Assembly: GCA_029624815.1 (NCBI GenBank)
Contig: JARSSH010000033.1
Coordinates: forward strand, 1 to 64,000
DNA: 64,000 nucleotides
Reading direction: 5' to 3'
From: Candidatus Competibacter sp.
Lineage (GTDB): Bacteria > Pseudomonadota > Gammaproteobacteria > Competibacterales > Competibacteraceae
Shown: in pieces, positions 1 to 7,431 of the stretch
Numbering within the stretch: the first letter of the stretch is position 1
Layout of the letters: the number at the start of each line of letters is the position of its first letter
Program-made: the position numbers and the translations under genes
The notes under the pieces: model-generated
Told to the model about the DNA's origin: nothing
What the model saw: only the letters and a program-made list of their open reading frames with translations
Databases searched by the model: none

Positions 1-45
1 TTACCTCCTTTCTATCGGGTTTGCCCCGTGATGAGAAACTGATAG

Positions 46-1956
46 GTGGTAAGGACCATCGCGCGACTGCGCCATCCGCATCTGGTGCGGGTGGTAAACT
101 TCTTCGAGTCGAACGACACCGCCTATCTGGTGATGGACTACTATGAAGGCGAAGACCTGGGGCGGCATCTGAAACCGCCCCGAAAAGGACAACCGGGAGT
201 CCGGTTGCCATGGCGGCGAGCGGTCGCGCTGCTGCTGCCGGTACTGGCCGGCTTGGAGAAAGTACATCAAGCCGGATTCATGCACCGGGACATCAAGCCG
301 GGCAACTTGTATCTGACCCATGACGACGAACTGATTCTGCTGGATTTCGGCTCGGCCCGGCAGGTGACCGGCACCCACACCCGCAGCTTGCTGATCTTTT
401 CCGAAGGCTTTGCGCCCTACGAACAGTACCTGCAAGGCCATTTGAACCGGCAGGGACCGTGGACCGACGTCTACGCCGTGGCGGCCACCCTGTACTTCAT
501 GCTAACCGCGCAGCGGCCGCCGTCGGCGCTGGACCGGAAACAGGCGACGCTGCTGCAACAACCGGAGTTGCTGAAACCGGCCCGCCATTTTCTCCCGGAT
601 CTCCCGCCGGCGCTGGATGCCGCCCTGCTCCGGGCGCTGGCGGTGGAACCGGAACAGCGGCTGCAATCGATCACGGCGTTCAAGCAGCATCTGGAAACCG
701 CACTGGCGGAAGACGACAAACCGCGCCCGACACCGCCGCCCGAACCGCCGACCCGACCCCAAGCCGCGCCACAACCATCGATTCCGCCCAAGGCGGCGTC
801 GGAATCCACCGCGAAGCCACCGCGCCCGGAAACGCCACCCCCGCCCAAAGCAGCCCCGGAACGCTCGTCAAGGTCGAACTGGGGGAGCGCGACGACGGCC
901 ATCGCCGTGGTCGGGTTGATAGCGTGGGGTGGGTGGTCGATTGGGTTGAGAACTCCACCGGATTTACCCAAGCCGCCGATGGTTGCAACGCCGTCGGTCG
1001 CCGAATCGCCGCCGATTCCAGCGCCGCCGCCGGCGGAACCAGTGCCCACTGTAGAGCCGCGCGCCTATCTGACGGTCAAAACCGAACCGCCCGAGGCTCA
1101 AGTTCGCATCATGAACATCGACCCGGCGTATCGGGACGGGATTGAATTGGCGCCGGGCGATTTTGACATTGAAGTGAGCGCCCCCGGCTATCGAACCGAC
1201 CGGGCGTGGCACGCGCTGGCGGCGGGCGCGCAAGAACTGAAGATCGCCTTGCCAGCGGAACCGTCCGCACCCGCCGCGGTACCACGATCATCGTTCGAAC
1301 CGGAAGTGGTGCGCATCCCTGGTGGGTGTTTTGAGATGGGCAGTCCAGCCTCGGAAGCGGATCGGGATGATGACGAACGGCAGCACCGGGTCTGCGTGGA
1401 CGCTTTCGAGGTCGGTCGATACGAAGTCACCCAAGGGCAATGGCAAGCGGCGATGGGCGACAACCCGTCCCGTTTCAAACGCGGCGACGACCACCCCGTG
1501 GAAAATGTCTCTTGGAACGATGTCCAAACGTATCTGCAAAAACTCAACGCCCGAACGGGCCGGACCTACCGCCTCCCCACCGAAGCCGAATGGGAGTATG
1601 CCTGCCGAGGTGGCATGGCGGGACAACGCTACTGTGGTGGCGACGGTCCCGAGCGGCTGGCCTGGCATAACGCCAACAGTGGCAACCAGGTCCACCCGGT
1701 GGGCCAAAAAGCCGCCAACGGCTTCGGACTTTATGACATGAGCGGGAATATCTGGGAATGGACCTGTTCGTTATACGACAAGAGCTACAGCGGCGCGGAG
1801 AGTGATTGTGCTGATAATAATACAGGGGGCCCCCGGTCGTTGCGCGGTGGCTCCTGGCGCAACGATCTTGCGTGGGTGCGTTCCGCCAACCGTGGCGGGC
1901 TCACGCCGGCGGGTCGCAACGACAACGCGGGGTTCCGTCTCGCCAGATCATTATAA
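46..1956 (+). CDS. Ser/Thr kinase - PEGA - FGE-sulfatase fusion, 5' truncated; probable DGR variable protein
   Basis: The protein begins inside a protein kinase domain. It has HRDIKPGN (residues 80-87), DFG (100-102) and GFAPYEQ (121-127) but no glycine-rich loop, catalytic Lys or alpha-C Glu. Two in-frame stops (TGA, TAG at 40-45) lie directly upstream, so the N-lobe has been lost, or the reading frame is broken near the window edge. After a proline-rich linker (about 226-275) comes one hydrophobic segment (about 278-300), a PEGA-like domain (about 340-402) and a formylglycine-generating-enzyme fold (about 420-636) with GGCFEMGS, LPTEAEWEYACRGG and GNIWEWT. The layout predicts a cytoplasmic kinase and an external C-type-lectin-like domain. 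The last 38 residues have the character of a DGR variable region, and an avd fragment follows 73 bp downstream. A functional kinase is doubtful in this form. Confidence 0.85.
   Translation: MVRTIARLRHPHLVRVVNFFESNDTAYLVMDYYEGEDLGRHLKPPRKGQPGVRLPWRRAVALLLPVLAGLEKVHQAGFMHRDIKPGNLYLTHDDELILLDFGSARQVTGTHTRSLLIFSEGFAPYEQYLQGHLNRQGPWTDVYAVAATLYFMLTAQRPPSALDRKQATLLQQPELLKPARHFLPDLPPALDAALLRALAVEPEQRLQSITAFKQHLETALAEDDKPRPTPPPEPPTRPQAAPQPSIPPKAASESTAKPPRPETPPPPKAAPERSSRSNWGSATTAIAVVGLIAWGGWSIGLRTPPDLPKPPMVATPSVAESPPIPAPPPAEPVPTVEPRAYLTVKTEPPEAQVRIMNIDPAYRDGIELAPGDFDIEVSAPGYRTDRAWHALAAGAQELKIALPAEPSAPAAVPRSSFEPEVVRIPGGCFEMGSPASEADRDDDERQHRVCVDAFEVGRYEVTQGQWQAAMGDNPSRFKRGDDHPVENVSWNDVQTYLQKLNARTGRTYRLPTEAEWEYACRGGMAGQRYCGGDGPERLAWHNANSGNQVHPVGQKAANGFGLYDMSGNIWEWTCSLYDKSYSGAESDCADNNTGGPRSLRGGSWRNDLAWVRSANRGGLTPAGRNDNAGFRLARSL
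1842..1955 (+). other. putative DGR variable region (VR) at the 3' end of the FGE domain
   Basis: The segment encodes a scaffold typical of DGR targets: invariant-looking GGSW, VRSANR and GFRLAR blocks separated by positions filled with R, D, L, W, G, G, L, G, D and A. In DGR template repeats such positions are AAY codons that adenine mutagenesis scatters. The region ends at the stop codon, as DGR variable regions usually do. No template repeat is present in the window, so the adenine-specific signature cannot be tested here. FGE-fold proteins without any DGR also end in GFR-like motifs; the neighbouring avd fragment is what tips the balance. Confidence 0.55.
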
Positions 1957-2029
1957 CAATTTGATTTTTATTGTTTTACCCTCTATCTTCACGCGAAGCG
2001 CGGGCGATTTTTTTGAAAAATTATCCACA

Positions 2030-2170
2030 ATGGCCAATGAACATTCGCGTGATTCCGTTCCTCGGGCGGTGCAAGCCTGCCATGAACTGCTGGCTTGGCT
2101 GATTCCGCCACTGGACTTATTTCCCCGCGCCCGGCGTTTTGCCTTGGGCGAGCGGGGGTGCTGTTCCTGA
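2030..2170 (+). pseudogene. avd: truncated avd (DGR accessory variability determinant)
   Basis: A 46-residue reading frame begins at an ATG and contains ACHELLAWLIPPLDLFPR followed by RRFALGER. This is the recognisable N-terminal helix region of Avd-type four-helix-bundle proteins, which work with the DGR reverse transcriptase. Normal Avd proteins run to roughly 110-130 residues; here the similarity stops at GER and the frame ends four residues later, exactly where a short inverted-repeat element begins. None of the other frames beyond that point continues the family. It lies 73 bp after the variable-protein stop, the usual order target-avd-template-RT. This is inferred to be the remnant of a DGR whose rest was deleted. 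Confidence 0.7.
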
Positions 2171-2247
2171 CGTGGATATAATGACCATCAACTAAATGAA
2201 TATAAAGTAGTTATTGAACTCAATATCCACGTCTGAAGCACTACCTA
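2155..2247. repeat. MITE-like inverted-repeat element interrupting avd
   Basis: Perfect 11-bp inverted arms (2169-2179, GACGTGGATAT, and 2223-2233) enclose an AT-rich centre. The similarity of the arms extends outward imperfectly over about 20 bp on each side. The left end coincides with the loss of avd similarity and the right end touches the stop codon of the next gene. A third related arm occurs alone at 6679-6705. No transposase is seen, so this is either a miniature element or the two ends left from a larger insertion sequence. Confidence 0.5.
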
Positions 2248-2712
2248 CGGCGGCTTGATGCCGTACTTGCGATAAATCTGCCGCAGTTCGCTTTTGGCCG
2301 CGCGGATCTCGCGGCTGTGGCTGCGTGCGCTGCCCAGGGTCGAGGAAGACAGGCGCCGAATATCGCTATTGAGATTGTCGATTTTGGCCTGGTCCTCGTA
2401 ACCGATGTGTGTGGGCGTGTTCTTCTTGCGACGCGAGGAACGGGGGCGATCGAGCTCGCGCACCGAGACGCCTCGATTCACCGCGCGCAATTCGCGCAAC
2501 TCCCGAGTGGCCCGCCGCATCGCACCGACGTTATCCACCTCGCCGTCCGGCGTGGGTTGAGACTGAATGTCCAGAGTCTGCGCGGGTTGATCGGCGGCGG
2601 GCGGAGCCCCGCCGTAATGGACTCGCCCGTCGGCGTCGGTCCACTTATAGACCTGCGCCCGAGCCGGTAAGACCAGCGCCAGCACAACGGCGAACATCAG
2701 CGCGGGTTTCAT
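2245..2712 (-). CDS. DUF4124 domain periplasmic protein
   Basis: The start is chosen at the ATG encoding MKPALMF because a GGAGGAT ribosome site sits just upstream, although the frame is open further. A signal peptide of about 19 residues ends at ARA. It is followed by the DUF4124 signature VYKWTDADGRVHYGG (about residues 21-35), a small beta domain at the mature N-terminus of many proteobacterial envelope proteins. The rest is charged and probably helical (ending RQIYRKYGIKPP) with no catalytic motif. Molecular function is unknown. It is followed downstream only by the inverted-repeat scar and lies 5' of nothing co-oriented except the antiporter. Confidence 0.75.
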   Translation of the reverse strand: MKPALMFAVVLALVLPARAQVYKWTDADGRVHYGGAPPAADQPAQTLDIQSQPTPDGEVDNVGAMRRATRELRELRAVNRGVSVRELDRPRSSRRKKNTPTHIGYEDQAKIDNLNSDIRRLSSSTLGSARSHSREIRAAKSELRQIYRKYGIKPP

Positions 2713-2751
2713 GCTTGATCCTCCCGAAAGCATGGCGGCGAACCGATTGGC

Positions 2752-4017
2752 TTACGGATTACCCGCGCCGGGATTGGCGGGAACCACCGTCGCTTCGATC
2801 AACCGGCCCACCGTCAAGCCCTGCACCAGAATCGAGAACAGCACCACGATGTAGGTCAACGCCAGCACGATCTGGCGTTCCGGCCCCGTCGGCAACGACA
2901 GCGCCAGAGCCACGGAAATGCCGCCGCGCAATCCGCCCCAGGTCATGATCTTGACGGCATGCGGCGAAAACGCAAAGCCGAACCGACGCCGCATGATACT
3001 TACGGGTAGGCCCACGCACGCCAGCCGGACCAGCAACACAATCGGGATGATCATGAGGGACGCCAGCAGATAATCGCGCGTGAAGGTCAGGATGACCACT
3101 TCCAGGCCGATCAGCACGAACAGCACGGCGTTCAGAATCTCGTCGATGAGTTCCCAGAAGGTATCCAGATGCTCGCGCGTGGCGTCCGACATCGCCAGGC
3201 TGCGGCCGTGATTGCCGATCATCAAGCCAGCCACCACCATGGCGATGGGTCCGGAAACATGCAGGTGAATGGCCAGCGCATAGCCGCCCAGCACCAGCGC
3301 CAAGGTGATCAGAATTTCGACATCGTAGCGATCGATGCTTTTCAGCAGCCGATAGGCGGCATAACCGATCGCCAGGCCGAACACGATGCCGCCCAGCGCT
3401 TCCTCGACGAACAGCAGGGCGACCCCGCCGGGCGTTACCGCTTCGCCGCCCACGGCCAGACCGAGCAGGATGGCGAACACCACCACGGCGACGCCGTCGT
3501 TGAACAGCGATTCCCCGGCGATCTTGATCTCCAGGCTCTTGGGGGCCTTGGCGGATTTTAGAATGCCGAGCACGGCGATCGGATCGGTGGGCGAAATCAG
3601 GGCGCCGAACAGCAGGCAGTACAGCAGGGCAATCGAGATGCCGAACAAAAAGTTGAGCACCAGCCAGGAGGCGATGCCCACCAAAAAGGTGGAGGCCACC
3701 ACGCCGACGGTCGCCAGAATGCCGATCGGCCATTTCTTCCGGGCCAATTCCTCCAGATCGACATGCAGGGCGCCGGCGAACAGCAACAGGGAGAGCATGC
3801 CTTGCATCAGCACCTGGTTGAAGTCGATGCCGCCGATGATGGCCTCGGCCCGCTGTTCGATCGGCGCGTATCCCAGTTCGCCCAGGCTCATCAGGATCAG
3901 GCTGAGCAACATGGCCAGCGCCATGACCCCAATGGTGGTGGGGAGTTTAATGAAACGGTGGTTGATGTAACTGAAGAGAGCGGTCAAGGTAACCAATAGC
4001 GCGACAATATCCAGCAT
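2752..4017 (-). CDS. CPA1-family Na+/H+ antiporter
   Basis: A polytopic inner-membrane protein of about 421 residues with 12 or so hydrophobic segments. It carries the cation/proton antiporter motifs SPTDPIAVLGIL and GESLFNDGVAVV, which hold the acidic residues used for ion and proton binding in the NhaP/CPA1 family. A GTG lies two codons upstream, but the ATG at 4017 has an AGGATC site at good spacing and is preferred. It should exchange cytoplasmic Na+ or K+ for protons in pH and salt homeostasis; the exact cation cannot be told from sequence. It is close to the DUF4124 gene on the same strand, but the two need not share a function. Confidence 0.88.
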   Translation of the reverse strand: MLDIVALLVTLTALFSYINHRFIKLPTTIGVMALAMLLSLILMSLGELGYAPIEQRAEAIIGGIDFNQVLMQGMLSLLLFAGALHVDLEELARKKWPIGILATVGVVASTFLVGIASWLVLNFLFGISIALLYCLLFGALISPTDPIAVLGILKSAKAPKSLEIKIAGESLFNDGVAVVVFAILLGLAVGGEAVTPGGVALLFVEEALGGIVFGLAIGYAAYRLLKSIDRYDVEILITLALVLGGYALAIHLHVSGPIAMVVAGLMIGNHGRSLAMSDATREHLDTFWELIDEILNAVLFVLIGLEVVILTFTRDYLLASLMIIPIVLLVRLACVGLPVSIMRRRFGFAFSPHAVKIMTWGGLRGGISVALALSLPTGPERQIVLALTYIVVLFSILVQGLTVGRLIEATVVPANPGAGNP

Positions 4018-4260: not shown

Positions 4261-6624
4261 TCATCGCGGCGCCAGCCGCGATCCGGTGGTAAACGAGACG
4301 ATGACAAAGTTCTGATGGGGCTCTGCCCAGCGCACGACGACGTTGCCGCCGGACCGGGGGAAATCCGGGAAAGTGTATTGACCGCTGGCTCCTTGCAGGA
4401 ACTCCACACCCAGGGTGGTCACGGTGAAATTGACGTTGGCGAATTCGGCACCGTCGGCGAAGGCCCGCAGGTTGTGGGTGCCGTCGCCCAGCCGGTTCCA
4501 GTTGAAGGTGGCGCCAAAGCCGTTGTCGGCGTCGCCGCAGGCCGCCACCGTATCCTCCCGCGTGGTGCCGTAAGCCACTCGTTGTCGCGCGCCGCCGTCG
4601 ATCTGCACCTCCACGGTGTTGGCCTGACAGATCCAGCCCCGGATCAGCCCGATTCCACTTTCGAACGAACCCGGTTGCGGGCTTTCCAGGGTGGCCGGAA
4701 ATTGCGCCAGCGGGGGGACCATCGCGGCCGGTTGGATGCTGGCCGCATTCCGGCTGGCGCCCACGATCACGAAGTTCTGATGGGATTCGGCCCAGCGCAG
4801 CGTCACGTTCGTGCCGGCCTGCGGGAAGTTGGCGACCGGATACTCGCCGCTGGCGCCCCGTAAGTACTCTTCACCCAGGGTGGTCACGGTGAAATTGACG
4901 TTGGCGAATTCGGCACCGTCGGCGAAGGCCCGCAGGTTGTGGGTGCCGTCGCCCAGCCGGTTCCAGTTGAAGGTGGCGCCAAAGCCGTTGTCGGCGTCGC
5001 CGCAGGCCGCCACCGTATCCTCCCGCGTGGTGCCGTAAGCCACTCGTTGTCGCGCGCCGCCGTCGATCTGCACCTCCACGGTGTTGGCCTGACAGATCCA
5101 GCCCCGGATCAGCCCGATTCCACTTTCGAACGAACCCGGTTGCGGGCTTTCCAGGGTGGCCTTGCCACCGCCCGACGACGGGCTCAACCATTGACTGACC
5201 GCAGGAAACGTCAAGTCAAAACGGCCATATAAATCAGATGCCGTCGGGTTCGCGCAGGATGAAGCGCCACCGTGCAAATCGCCGACAAACAGTTGCAGGC
5301 CGTTTTGCTCGCCGGTAATCACGAAGATGCCGGATCCGCTACTTCCTGTTTCGGTAATCCCTTGCGACCAAGTCACCTGGATGTGGTTGTCGCTTGTGTC
5401 GACCGAACCCTCACCAGTCCAGGGAGCGAATCGATCAGCCGTGCCTTGACTCCATTTTTTCAAGTCGCCCTGGGGATGATGGATGCCCACCGCCGTCCGG
5501 CCGACCGGATTGGTCGTGGTCCAGCCGGCAAATTGGATGCCCGGCAGGCTGCTGATTTGCGCATCCCGCAAGCGCAGGAAGGTAAAGTCGGTGCTGGCGC
5601 CGGTGGCGAGCAAGTCGGCGCCGCCGGCGAACTGGATGACGGATGTTGGGTTCGGTCCCTCGCAGACCGCGCGTTCGAAAAACCAGTAGCTGTTGATAGT
5701 GTTGGCGACCGATTGGGTCGACAGGCAGTGGTTGGCGGTCATGAAATATGGAATTCTGGTATTGGGATCATTATCGTTGAGCAAGGTGCCCGTGCACAGA
5801 AAACTGCTTTGGGCGTCGCTGTAAATGATTTTGGCCACTGCGGCGCTTAAATCGCTGGGCACCGTGTCGCGGCATTTGACGTCGATGTTGCAAGCCGCGG
5901 AGCTGCCGATACCAGAAAGATCCTTTTCGTCGGGATACTGAAGCGAATACGCCAGGTGCTGTATCTTGGACGCCCGCATTGGAAACCCGCTTTCCACCGG
6001 CCCGGGCAGATAAATCTCTACCCCGGCGGTTTCCCCCTCGATCACCGGCGACCAGAACAGAGTCGGGGCAGTTTCGGTGCCGGCGGCATCGCTCCCCGCT
6101 TGCTGGGCGCGCAGGGATCTGGCGGTGAAGGGGCCGAAGGTGTCGGAATTCTTGCTCCCGAAAAAACGCATTTCCGCGTTCTCGGGCAGCCCCTCCAGTT
6201 CGACCCCCACTCGAATCGCCCGCGCCCCCGGCGAGGTGACCGAAAAGGCCGCGACCCGACCATCGCCGGGCAGGGATTCCCAGGTCAGCCATGGAGATAA
6301 ATCCCCCTGATAGGGTGGCGGCATGTCCCGTGCGAACCCCACCTTCAGCGGCTGGCCCTTGCGCGGCGCCGCCAGGGTGGCTTTCTCCGTGGCCGTGACC
6401 GGGTCCAGCACGACTTGGAGGGGTATCGCGGTGGTGCGGTAATCCCGCTTGAGTGGCTGGGCGGGCAGCGTCATGGGTACCCTGCTAGCCGCCGGCGGCG
6501 AGTCCCAACCGACCGAGGCGGAGTGGCTCTCGGAAAAAACAAACGCCAACAAGAAGAGAGCGACCAGCGAAGGCGAAAGTGACCGCGGGGACATCAATCG
6601 AACACACCGTTCTGCCGTATTCAT
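4261..6624 (-). CDS. secreted trypsin-like serine endopeptidase with two identical C-terminal repeat modules
   Basis: The start is set at the ATG at 6624 (MNTAERCVRL), preceded by AGGAAA. The upstream extension looks non-coding. A signal peptide with a hydrophobic core VALFLLAFVF is followed by a propeptide-like region. The protease domain has His299 in TANHC, Asp346 in STDFTFLRL and Ser431 in GSSGSGIF, the trypsin-fold triad in the style of lysyl endopeptidases. Two C-terminal modules follow, each opening with ESPQPGSFESGIGLIRGW and holding two Cys; part of each is identical at the DNA level. Each module pairs an Ig/beta-like unit with a short segment ending in NFVIV. Secretion, possibly to the cell surface, is inferred. 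The IS110 fragment lies upstream. Confidence 0.82.
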   Translation of the reverse strand: MNTAERCVRLMSPRSLSPSLVALFLLAFVFSESHSASVGWDSPPAASRVPMTLPAQPLKRDYRTTAIPLQVVLDPVTATEKATLAAPRKGQPLKVGFARDMPPPYQGDLSPWLTWESLPGDGRVAAFSVTSPGARAIRVGVELEGLPENAEMRFFGSKNSDTFGPFTARSLRAQQAGSDAAGTETAPTLFWSPVIEGETAGVEIYLPGPVESGFPMRASKIQHLAYSLQYPDEKDLSGIGSSAACNIDVKCRDTVPSDLSAAVAKIIYSDAQSSFLCTGTLLNDNDPNTRIPYFMTANHCLSTQSVANTINSYWFFERAVCEGPNPTSVIQFAGGADLLATGASTDFTFLRLRDAQISSLPGIQFAGWTTTNPVGRTAVGIHHPQGDLKKWSQGTADRFAPWTGEGSVDTSDNHIQVTWSQGITETGSSGSGIFVITGEQNGLQLFVGDLHGGASSCANPTASDLYGRFDLTFPAVSQWLSPSSGGGKATLESPQPGSFESGIGLIRGWICQANTVEVQIDGGARQRVAYGTTREDTVAACGDADNGFGATFNWNRLGDGTHNLRAFADGAEFANVNFTVTTLGEEYLRGASGEYPVANFPQAGTNVTLRWAESHQNFVIVGASRNAASIQPAAMVPPLAQFPATLESPQPGSFESGIGLIRGWICQANTVEVQIDGGARQRVAYGTTREDTVAACGDADNGFGATFNWNRLGDGTHNLRAFADGAEFANVNFTVTTLGVEFLQGASGQYTFPDFPRSGGNVVVRWAEPHQNFVIVSFTTGSRLAPR
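4408..4696 (-). repeat. 289-bp perfect direct repeat, copy 1 (distal module)
   Basis: Identical by eye, base for base, to 4873-5161. The two lie at a 465-bp (155-codon) period inside the protease gene and encode residues about 643-740. The flanking parts of each module differ, so identity is confined to this block. Confidence 0.9.
4873..5161 (-). repeat. 289-bp perfect direct repeat, copy 2 (proximal module)
   Basis: Partner of 4408-4696; encodes residues about 489-585 of the protease. Perfect identity, including third codon positions, points to a recent duplication or ongoing gene conversion. Confidence 0.9.
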
Positions 6625-6942
6625 AGAGCATTTCCTGTTTGCTGGGCGTGGAGGGGGAGCTGGAAGCTTGAGGTATGAAATCCATGTCTGGAACACTACC
6701 ATCGGCCTGGATACGGTTTTTTGACCTCGTCCACCGTTCGTCCCAGTCACAACGCTCGCACGCAGGTTATCCAGCGCTCGCCACTCGGGGATGGCCATCG
6801 GACGGCTCGTTGCTAGGATTATAGTTAAGAACCCAAAAATATCAGTGAAACACTCAAGAATTCAGTCATCGGCGGGCACGAGTCGGGCACTGCTGGCTGT
6901 GCGGATTCCGCCAGCAATTTGGGAAGCTCAAAATAAACCTCC
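6625..6942. other. intergenic, protease promoter side, with a solitary inverted-repeat arm
   Basis: No supported gene. At 6679-6705 lies one arm related to the MITE-like element at 2155-2247, about 55 bp ahead of the protease start. The end adjoining the IS110 fragment is probably debris of that element. The protease promoter should lie here, but no convincing -35/-10 pair was assigned. Confidence 0.45.

Positions 6943-7431
<489 letters not shown>

Follow-up and report, generated by a model that had tools for sequence, protein, structure and literature searches.

The diversity-generating retroelement (DGR) of BPP-1 (PMC3240598; spacer summary in PMC12875486) has, like the Competibacteraceae DGRs compared here, a variable repeat (VR), a post-VR hairpin, Avd, and a template repeat (TR) followed by a structured spacer RNA, which recruits the complex of reverse transcriptase (RT) and Avd (PMC12875486). 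The Competibacteraceae relatives differ from BPP-1 in their gene order (avd-RT-TR-spacer) and in their hairpin loops, which are 3-nt GNA loops instead of the 4-nt GRNA loops of BPP-1, and the target described here is a kinase receptor, whereas that of BPP-1 is a phage tail protein. TvpA of Treponema denticola (2y3c) likewise has a C-type-lectin fold of the FGE type with a C-terminal VR, but no kinase fusion. Ser/Thr kinase variable proteins are known from cyanobacterial DGRs (Vallota-Eastman et al. 2020, PMC7517822), in which, as in the present locus, a Ser/Thr kinase is joined to a C-terminal C-type-lectin domain bearing the VR, and remote targets scattered over the genome are a further shared trait. 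The cyanobacterial kinase targets are mostly predicted to be cytosolic, whereas the present target, from Competibacteraceae, has a membrane helix (by inspection).

Degenerate DGR loci eroded by MITEs, together with diversification in trans, have been described in Thiohalocapsa PB-PSB1 (Dore et al. 2024, PMC10907252). These loci share with the present one C-type-lectin targets fused to signalling domains including a protein kinase, the loss of RT or TR, and MITE-like repeats in place of DGR parts. They differ in that reads show diversification there, either in trans or through intact variants, whereas here RT and TR were not found in the assembly, and in that the present kinase is itself broken by an IS. 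Both kinase targets and DGRs eroded by MITEs have been published before, and the present locus adds a well-resolved further case. The literature search found no paper on DGRs of Competibacter, the sole co-mention concerning Bdellovibrio.

The stretch of DNA analysed (the window) comprises 64 kb from the start of contig C33, in a 3.63-Mb assembly of 70 contigs that is 99.97% complete. Contigs of this assembly are given below as C and a number, those of other genomes with a genome handle in front. The locus at the start of the window (Table 1) is best explained, with a probability of roughly 0.87, as the wreck of a DGR, with MITE-linked loss of the 3′ part of avd and of RT and TR, a kinase gene split by an IS, and a decayed hairpin.

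Table 1 Features of the DGR locus and its flanks, in window positions
Feature	Position	Strand	Description
IS end	1..53	.	At contig start; 17-bp terminal inverted repeat AACTGATAGGTGGTAAG at 37-53
DGR target gene, 3′ part	46..1956	+	Ser/Thr kinase, proline-rich linker, transmembrane helix, FGE/C-type-lectin-fold domain
10-bp target site duplication GACCATCGCG	54..63	.	Second copy at C52 end of kinase gene
FGE-sulfatase (C-type lectin fold) domain	1300..1947	+	Profile and solved-structure matches
VR core, 99 nt	1843..1941	+	Gap-free alignment to G028:C26 TR
AT-rich stretch after stop codon	1957..1987	+	Conserved in family DGR targets
Post-VR hairpin, decayed	1988..2004	+	Arms TTCACGC / GCGCGGG, loop GAA
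Perfect DnaA-box consensus TTATCCACA	2021..2029	+	Between hairpin/T-run and avd
avd remnant	2030..2155	+	Start codon and 41 codons; 35/42 identical to complete Avd of G019:C176
90-bp MITE	2156..2245	.	Imperfect terminal inverted repeats; ends avd, abuts stop codon of next gene
DUF4124 gene	2245..2733	-	Conserved flank, outside DGR

The target is a kinase-FGE gene split by an IS

The open reading frame at 46-1956 matched Pkinase (PF00069) over profile positions 51-259, with the start of the N-lobe absent and kinase homology beginning at position 55, and matched FGE-sulfatase (PF03781) with an E-value of 6e-51, bearing out the fusion of a Ser/Thr kinase with an FGE/C-type-lectin domain that had been proposed in an earlier note on this DNA. 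One transmembrane helix is located near 890-950 (by inspection), and the solved-structure matches of the FGE part were, in order, PvdO, TvpA (2y3c, E 6e-28) and formylglycine-generating enzymes.

Three points had been missed in the earlier note: position 1 of the window is the start of the contig, the kinase gene is split by an IS, and avd is ended by a MITE. The 5′ part of the kinase gene, including the start of the N-lobe, is located at C52:54-444, and the gene upstream of it is the same as in congeners (miaB-like, by inspection). The partner inverted repeat CTTACCACCTATCAGTT at the end of C52 matches the 17-bp repeat of C33, and because GACCATCGCG is also present on both sides, the split of the kinase gene between C52 and C33 is a simple IS insertion.

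Intact and eroded DGRs are found in relatives

Both Avd and DGR RTs occur in the genus and in the wider family. BLAST self-comparison of five relative loci gave TR/VR pairs of about 120 nt with mismatches only at template adenines (11/11 and 15/15 in G002:C397, 13/13 and 14/14 in G024:C53, 15/15 and 19/19 in G028:C49, 16/16 in G010:C333, and 14/14 in G028:C26); an earlier self-scan with a strict window had given none. By the earlier note, its reading would fall if no adenine-biased template existed in the genome or its relatives and the 46-residue frame had no match to an Avd profile. That refutation fails, since five loci in relatives carry such templates and the frame is avd by profile and by identity to a complete Avd. 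The targets of these DGRs include TIR-FGE, NACHT-FGE and membrane FGE proteins like that of the window. In G028:C26 the order is target VR, avd, RT, TR and spacer, collinear with the window across VR and avd. The kinase-FGE gene of the window belongs to the same class of DGR targets as a gene in a relative that has kept avd, RT and TR intact.

Eroded loci were also seen. An avd remnant lies behind the VR in G001:C92 (20 codons), in G002:C190 (about 11 codons) and, frameshifted, in G024:C24, and the RTs of G019:C176 and G001:C61 break off after some 35-43 residues. Since the avd remnants vary in length, DGR targets in Competibacteraceae have repeatedly outlived their machinery.

Differences in the VR concentrate at template adenines

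The C-terminal segment that had been called VR-like in the earlier note contains a VR-like core, which differs from the TR of G028:C26, a reference template from another genus than the window, at 14/24 adenine sites and 13/75 other sites (p 2e-4). The genome has a second target at C26:1-3089, where a kinase-PEGA gene is followed by a secreted FGE gene. The VR of this FGE gene differs from the same template at 12/24 adenine and 4/75 other sites (p 3e-6), and from the window VR at 17/24 adenine and 11/75 non-adenine sites; compared with the VR of G019:C176, from a different genus, it differs at 14/24 adenine sites and at just 3/75 others.

FGE genes of the same genome that are not DGR targets served as controls. 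Two of them, on C66 and C38, had been considered as DGR targets and were rejected, lacking low divergence at non-adenine sites; such genes differ from the G028:C26 TR at 25-28 of the 75 non-adenine sites. The C66 control also showed an adenine bias (p 0.003), yet with 27/75 non-adenine differences, and part of the adenine bias seen against a distant TR comes with the FGE fold itself. Past diversification of the window VR, an inferred step in the earlier note, is nevertheless supported, because its differences from both the family template and the VR on C26 concentrate at template adenines and the non-DGR FGE genes lack low non-adenine divergence. The 13/75 non-adenine differences suggest that the own TR was different or that the VR drifted. 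Several non-adenine states are common to the window VR, G003:C28 and G001:C92, which would fit a sister template plus some drift. The VRs of G003:C28 and G002:C190 were rejected as strict orthologs and left out as ortholog pairs for dating, as the kinase and upstream gene are syntenic and the FGE halves are swapped or frameshifted.

The avd gene ends exactly at a MITE

The 46-residue frame at 2030-2167 (to about 2170) matched the NCBIfam profile NF033474 (DGR protein Avd) over positions 4-32 of 104 (E = 0.006, 16.9 bits), a match that is weak alone and under the curated cut-off of 80 bits because just this part of the profile remains. The complete 121-residue Avd of G019:C176 scored 86.4 bits against the same cut-off, and the window fragment is 83% identical to it over 42 residues. 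A PDB sequence search with the complete Avd gave no match. DNA homology to the avd of many relatives stops at 2154-2155, so that the count of 42 codons, given as approximate in the earlier note, is exact; the frame is a genuine avd gene up to and including codon 42. It lies directly behind the target, as in G019:C176 and G028:C26. Kinase-FGE fusions exist outside DGRs, and an ordinary gene of this kind with a chance avd-like frame behind it could produce a profile match as weak as E 0.006, but this explanation is refuted by the identity to a complete Avd that itself passes NF033474, by the position behind the VR as in intact DGRs and by the VR statistics, and its probability is negligible.

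The MITE that ends avd has three more genomic copies, on C10, C35 and C29 (95-98% identity). IS and MITE junctions are repeats, at which short-read assemblies can misjoin. An intact avd in the organism, with the join to MITE and DUF4124 gene produced by misassembly at a 90-bp repeat that occurs four times, would accord with these near-identical copies and with the different neighbour on the 3′ side of the DUF4124 gene in three congeners. Such an artefact is improbable, however, as the left end of the C33 copy is unlike that of the other copies, common reads are longer than 90 bp, neither the RT nor the lost portion of avd occurs elsewhere in the assembly, and similar avd truncations occur in relatives.

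Elsewhere in the window, an 845-residue secreted protease-like protein is encoded at 4261-6798 (-), with a C-terminal module of about 150 residues tandemly duplicated in nearly identical copies, and 6943-7296 (-) holds a fragment resembling the N-terminal part of an IS110-type transposase. An Rfam search of window positions 1-4000 gave no match.

RT and TR are absent from the assembly, and a spacer scar is present

RT queries detected no DGR RT in the assembly. There were two RVT_1 matches in all, and the RT on C50 was rejected as a DGR RT, being a group II intron RT (TIGR04416, 339 bits). Neither a TR, nor another avd, nor the rest of the truncated avd was found in the assembly. The absence of TR and RT reported in the earlier note therefore extends beyond the window to the whole assembly, and the locus is not a complete functional DGR, having neither a dedicated RT nor a TR that differs at adenines only.

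A trace of the TR/RT half is present in the genome as a spacer scar of 136 bp at C14:29400-29535, 81-88% identical to the sequence directly after the TR in relatives (G028:C26, G026:C141, G002:C397 and G010:C333, with different genes beyond), and no TR adjoins it on C14. The spacer consensus folds with eight pairs that show compensatory changes, and this covariation-supported fold of the scar sequence would fit a spacer RNA of the kind that recruits RT-Avd. The scar need not be linked to the C33 locus and may stem from a different DGR. It adjoins an AAA-ATPase_like (PF09820) gene, and a gene of the same kind follows the TR in G028:C26.

The earlier note had also suggested that the receptor may still be diversified in trans. 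The window target would then be a live remote target served by an RT/TR cassette absent from the assembly, for example beyond the end of C26. The second target fits such a cassette, as its VR matches the family template at 71/75 non-adenine sites and its contig ends 27 bp after the stop codon, leaving room for the missing genes, and in Thiohalocapsa PB-PSB1 incomplete loci are known to be diversified in trans (PMC10907252). The 99.97% complete assembly itself gives the suggestion no support, with no RT, TR or complete Avd; moreover, the window hairpin is broken, the kinase is split by the IS, and the window VR has 11-13/75 non-adenine mismatches to the C26 VR and the family TR. A live target is accordingly unlikely. 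The window target instead looks dead, given its IS-split kinase and decayed post-VR hairpin.

A 3′ cassette follows the VR in Competibacteraceae targets

In most relatives the post-VR hairpin is intact, with a perfect 7-bp CCCGCGC-GCA-GCGCGGG, whereas the arms in the window have one mismatch and two wobble pairs and do not form a GC-rich hairpin of the homing type. A degenerate pattern of VR end and AT-rich segment was found at 33 places in 15/39 family genomes, and at 0 places among the 39 when reversed; four of the matched places that were inspected are unrelated genes. In most family DGR targets a GC-rich hairpin stands at an almost constant distance; its stem varies, and its loop is mostly GNA. 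The cassette runs from the VR through an AT-rich segment, a GNA-loop hairpin and a T-run to a perfect DnaA box, which about half of the targets have. An AT-rich segment (CTTTATTCTTTTTCCCTTT) likewise follows the VR at about 1056-1160 of L281, a distant AT-rich gammaproteobacterial DGR, much as in Competibacteraceae.

The perfect box TTATCCACA was seen behind the hairpin in 12/27 family loci, with 2 more having one change, and at six loci it persists where there is no avd. Sequence homology between remote targets stops at the box. In 209 kb of family DNA every one of the 7 copies sits behind a VR, and 0.19 copies would be expected by chance in the 64-kb window. DGRs of 7 other gammaproteobacterial genomes lacked the box at their VR ends, and it was rejected as a general DGR feature. 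Editing in a reconstituted DGR follows the direction of replication (PMC12875486). It is conceivable, if rather doubtful, that Competibacteraceae targets travel as a defined 3′ cassette in which the box recruits DnaA to open or mark the target, tying mutagenic homing to replication. Shared descent of the avd leader may explain the pattern, as many family targets and the VR ends in the 7 other genomes lack the box. No paper linking DGRs and DnaA was found, the sole co-mention being a phage genome report.

Discussion

In the intact system, RT with Avd would have copied the TR RNA to cDNA, placing random bases opposite template adenines, and this cDNA would have replaced the VR at the target's 3′ end. 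The target was a membrane Ser/Thr kinase whose FGE/C-type-lectin domain is presumed to have been an extracytoplasmic sensor. Such mutation would have retuned the ligand sensed by the kinase. A MITE-associated deletion or rearrangement probably removed avd after codon 42 and everything behind it, perhaps leaving the spacer scar on C14 without a TR; the IS split the kinase earlier or later than the MITE event, and the recognition hairpin has decayed.

The 3′ target cassette is the least expected lead of the analysis and would allow the features that mark a gene as a DGR target to be studied directly. The locus itself suggests that a signalling kinase of a wastewater (Competibacter) lineage was once the object of targeted hypermutation, and it is a wreck with both junctions readable. 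As avd is cut at different points in several species of the family while the target stays, it becomes possible to compare how DGRs erode and what happens to receptors orphaned in this way.
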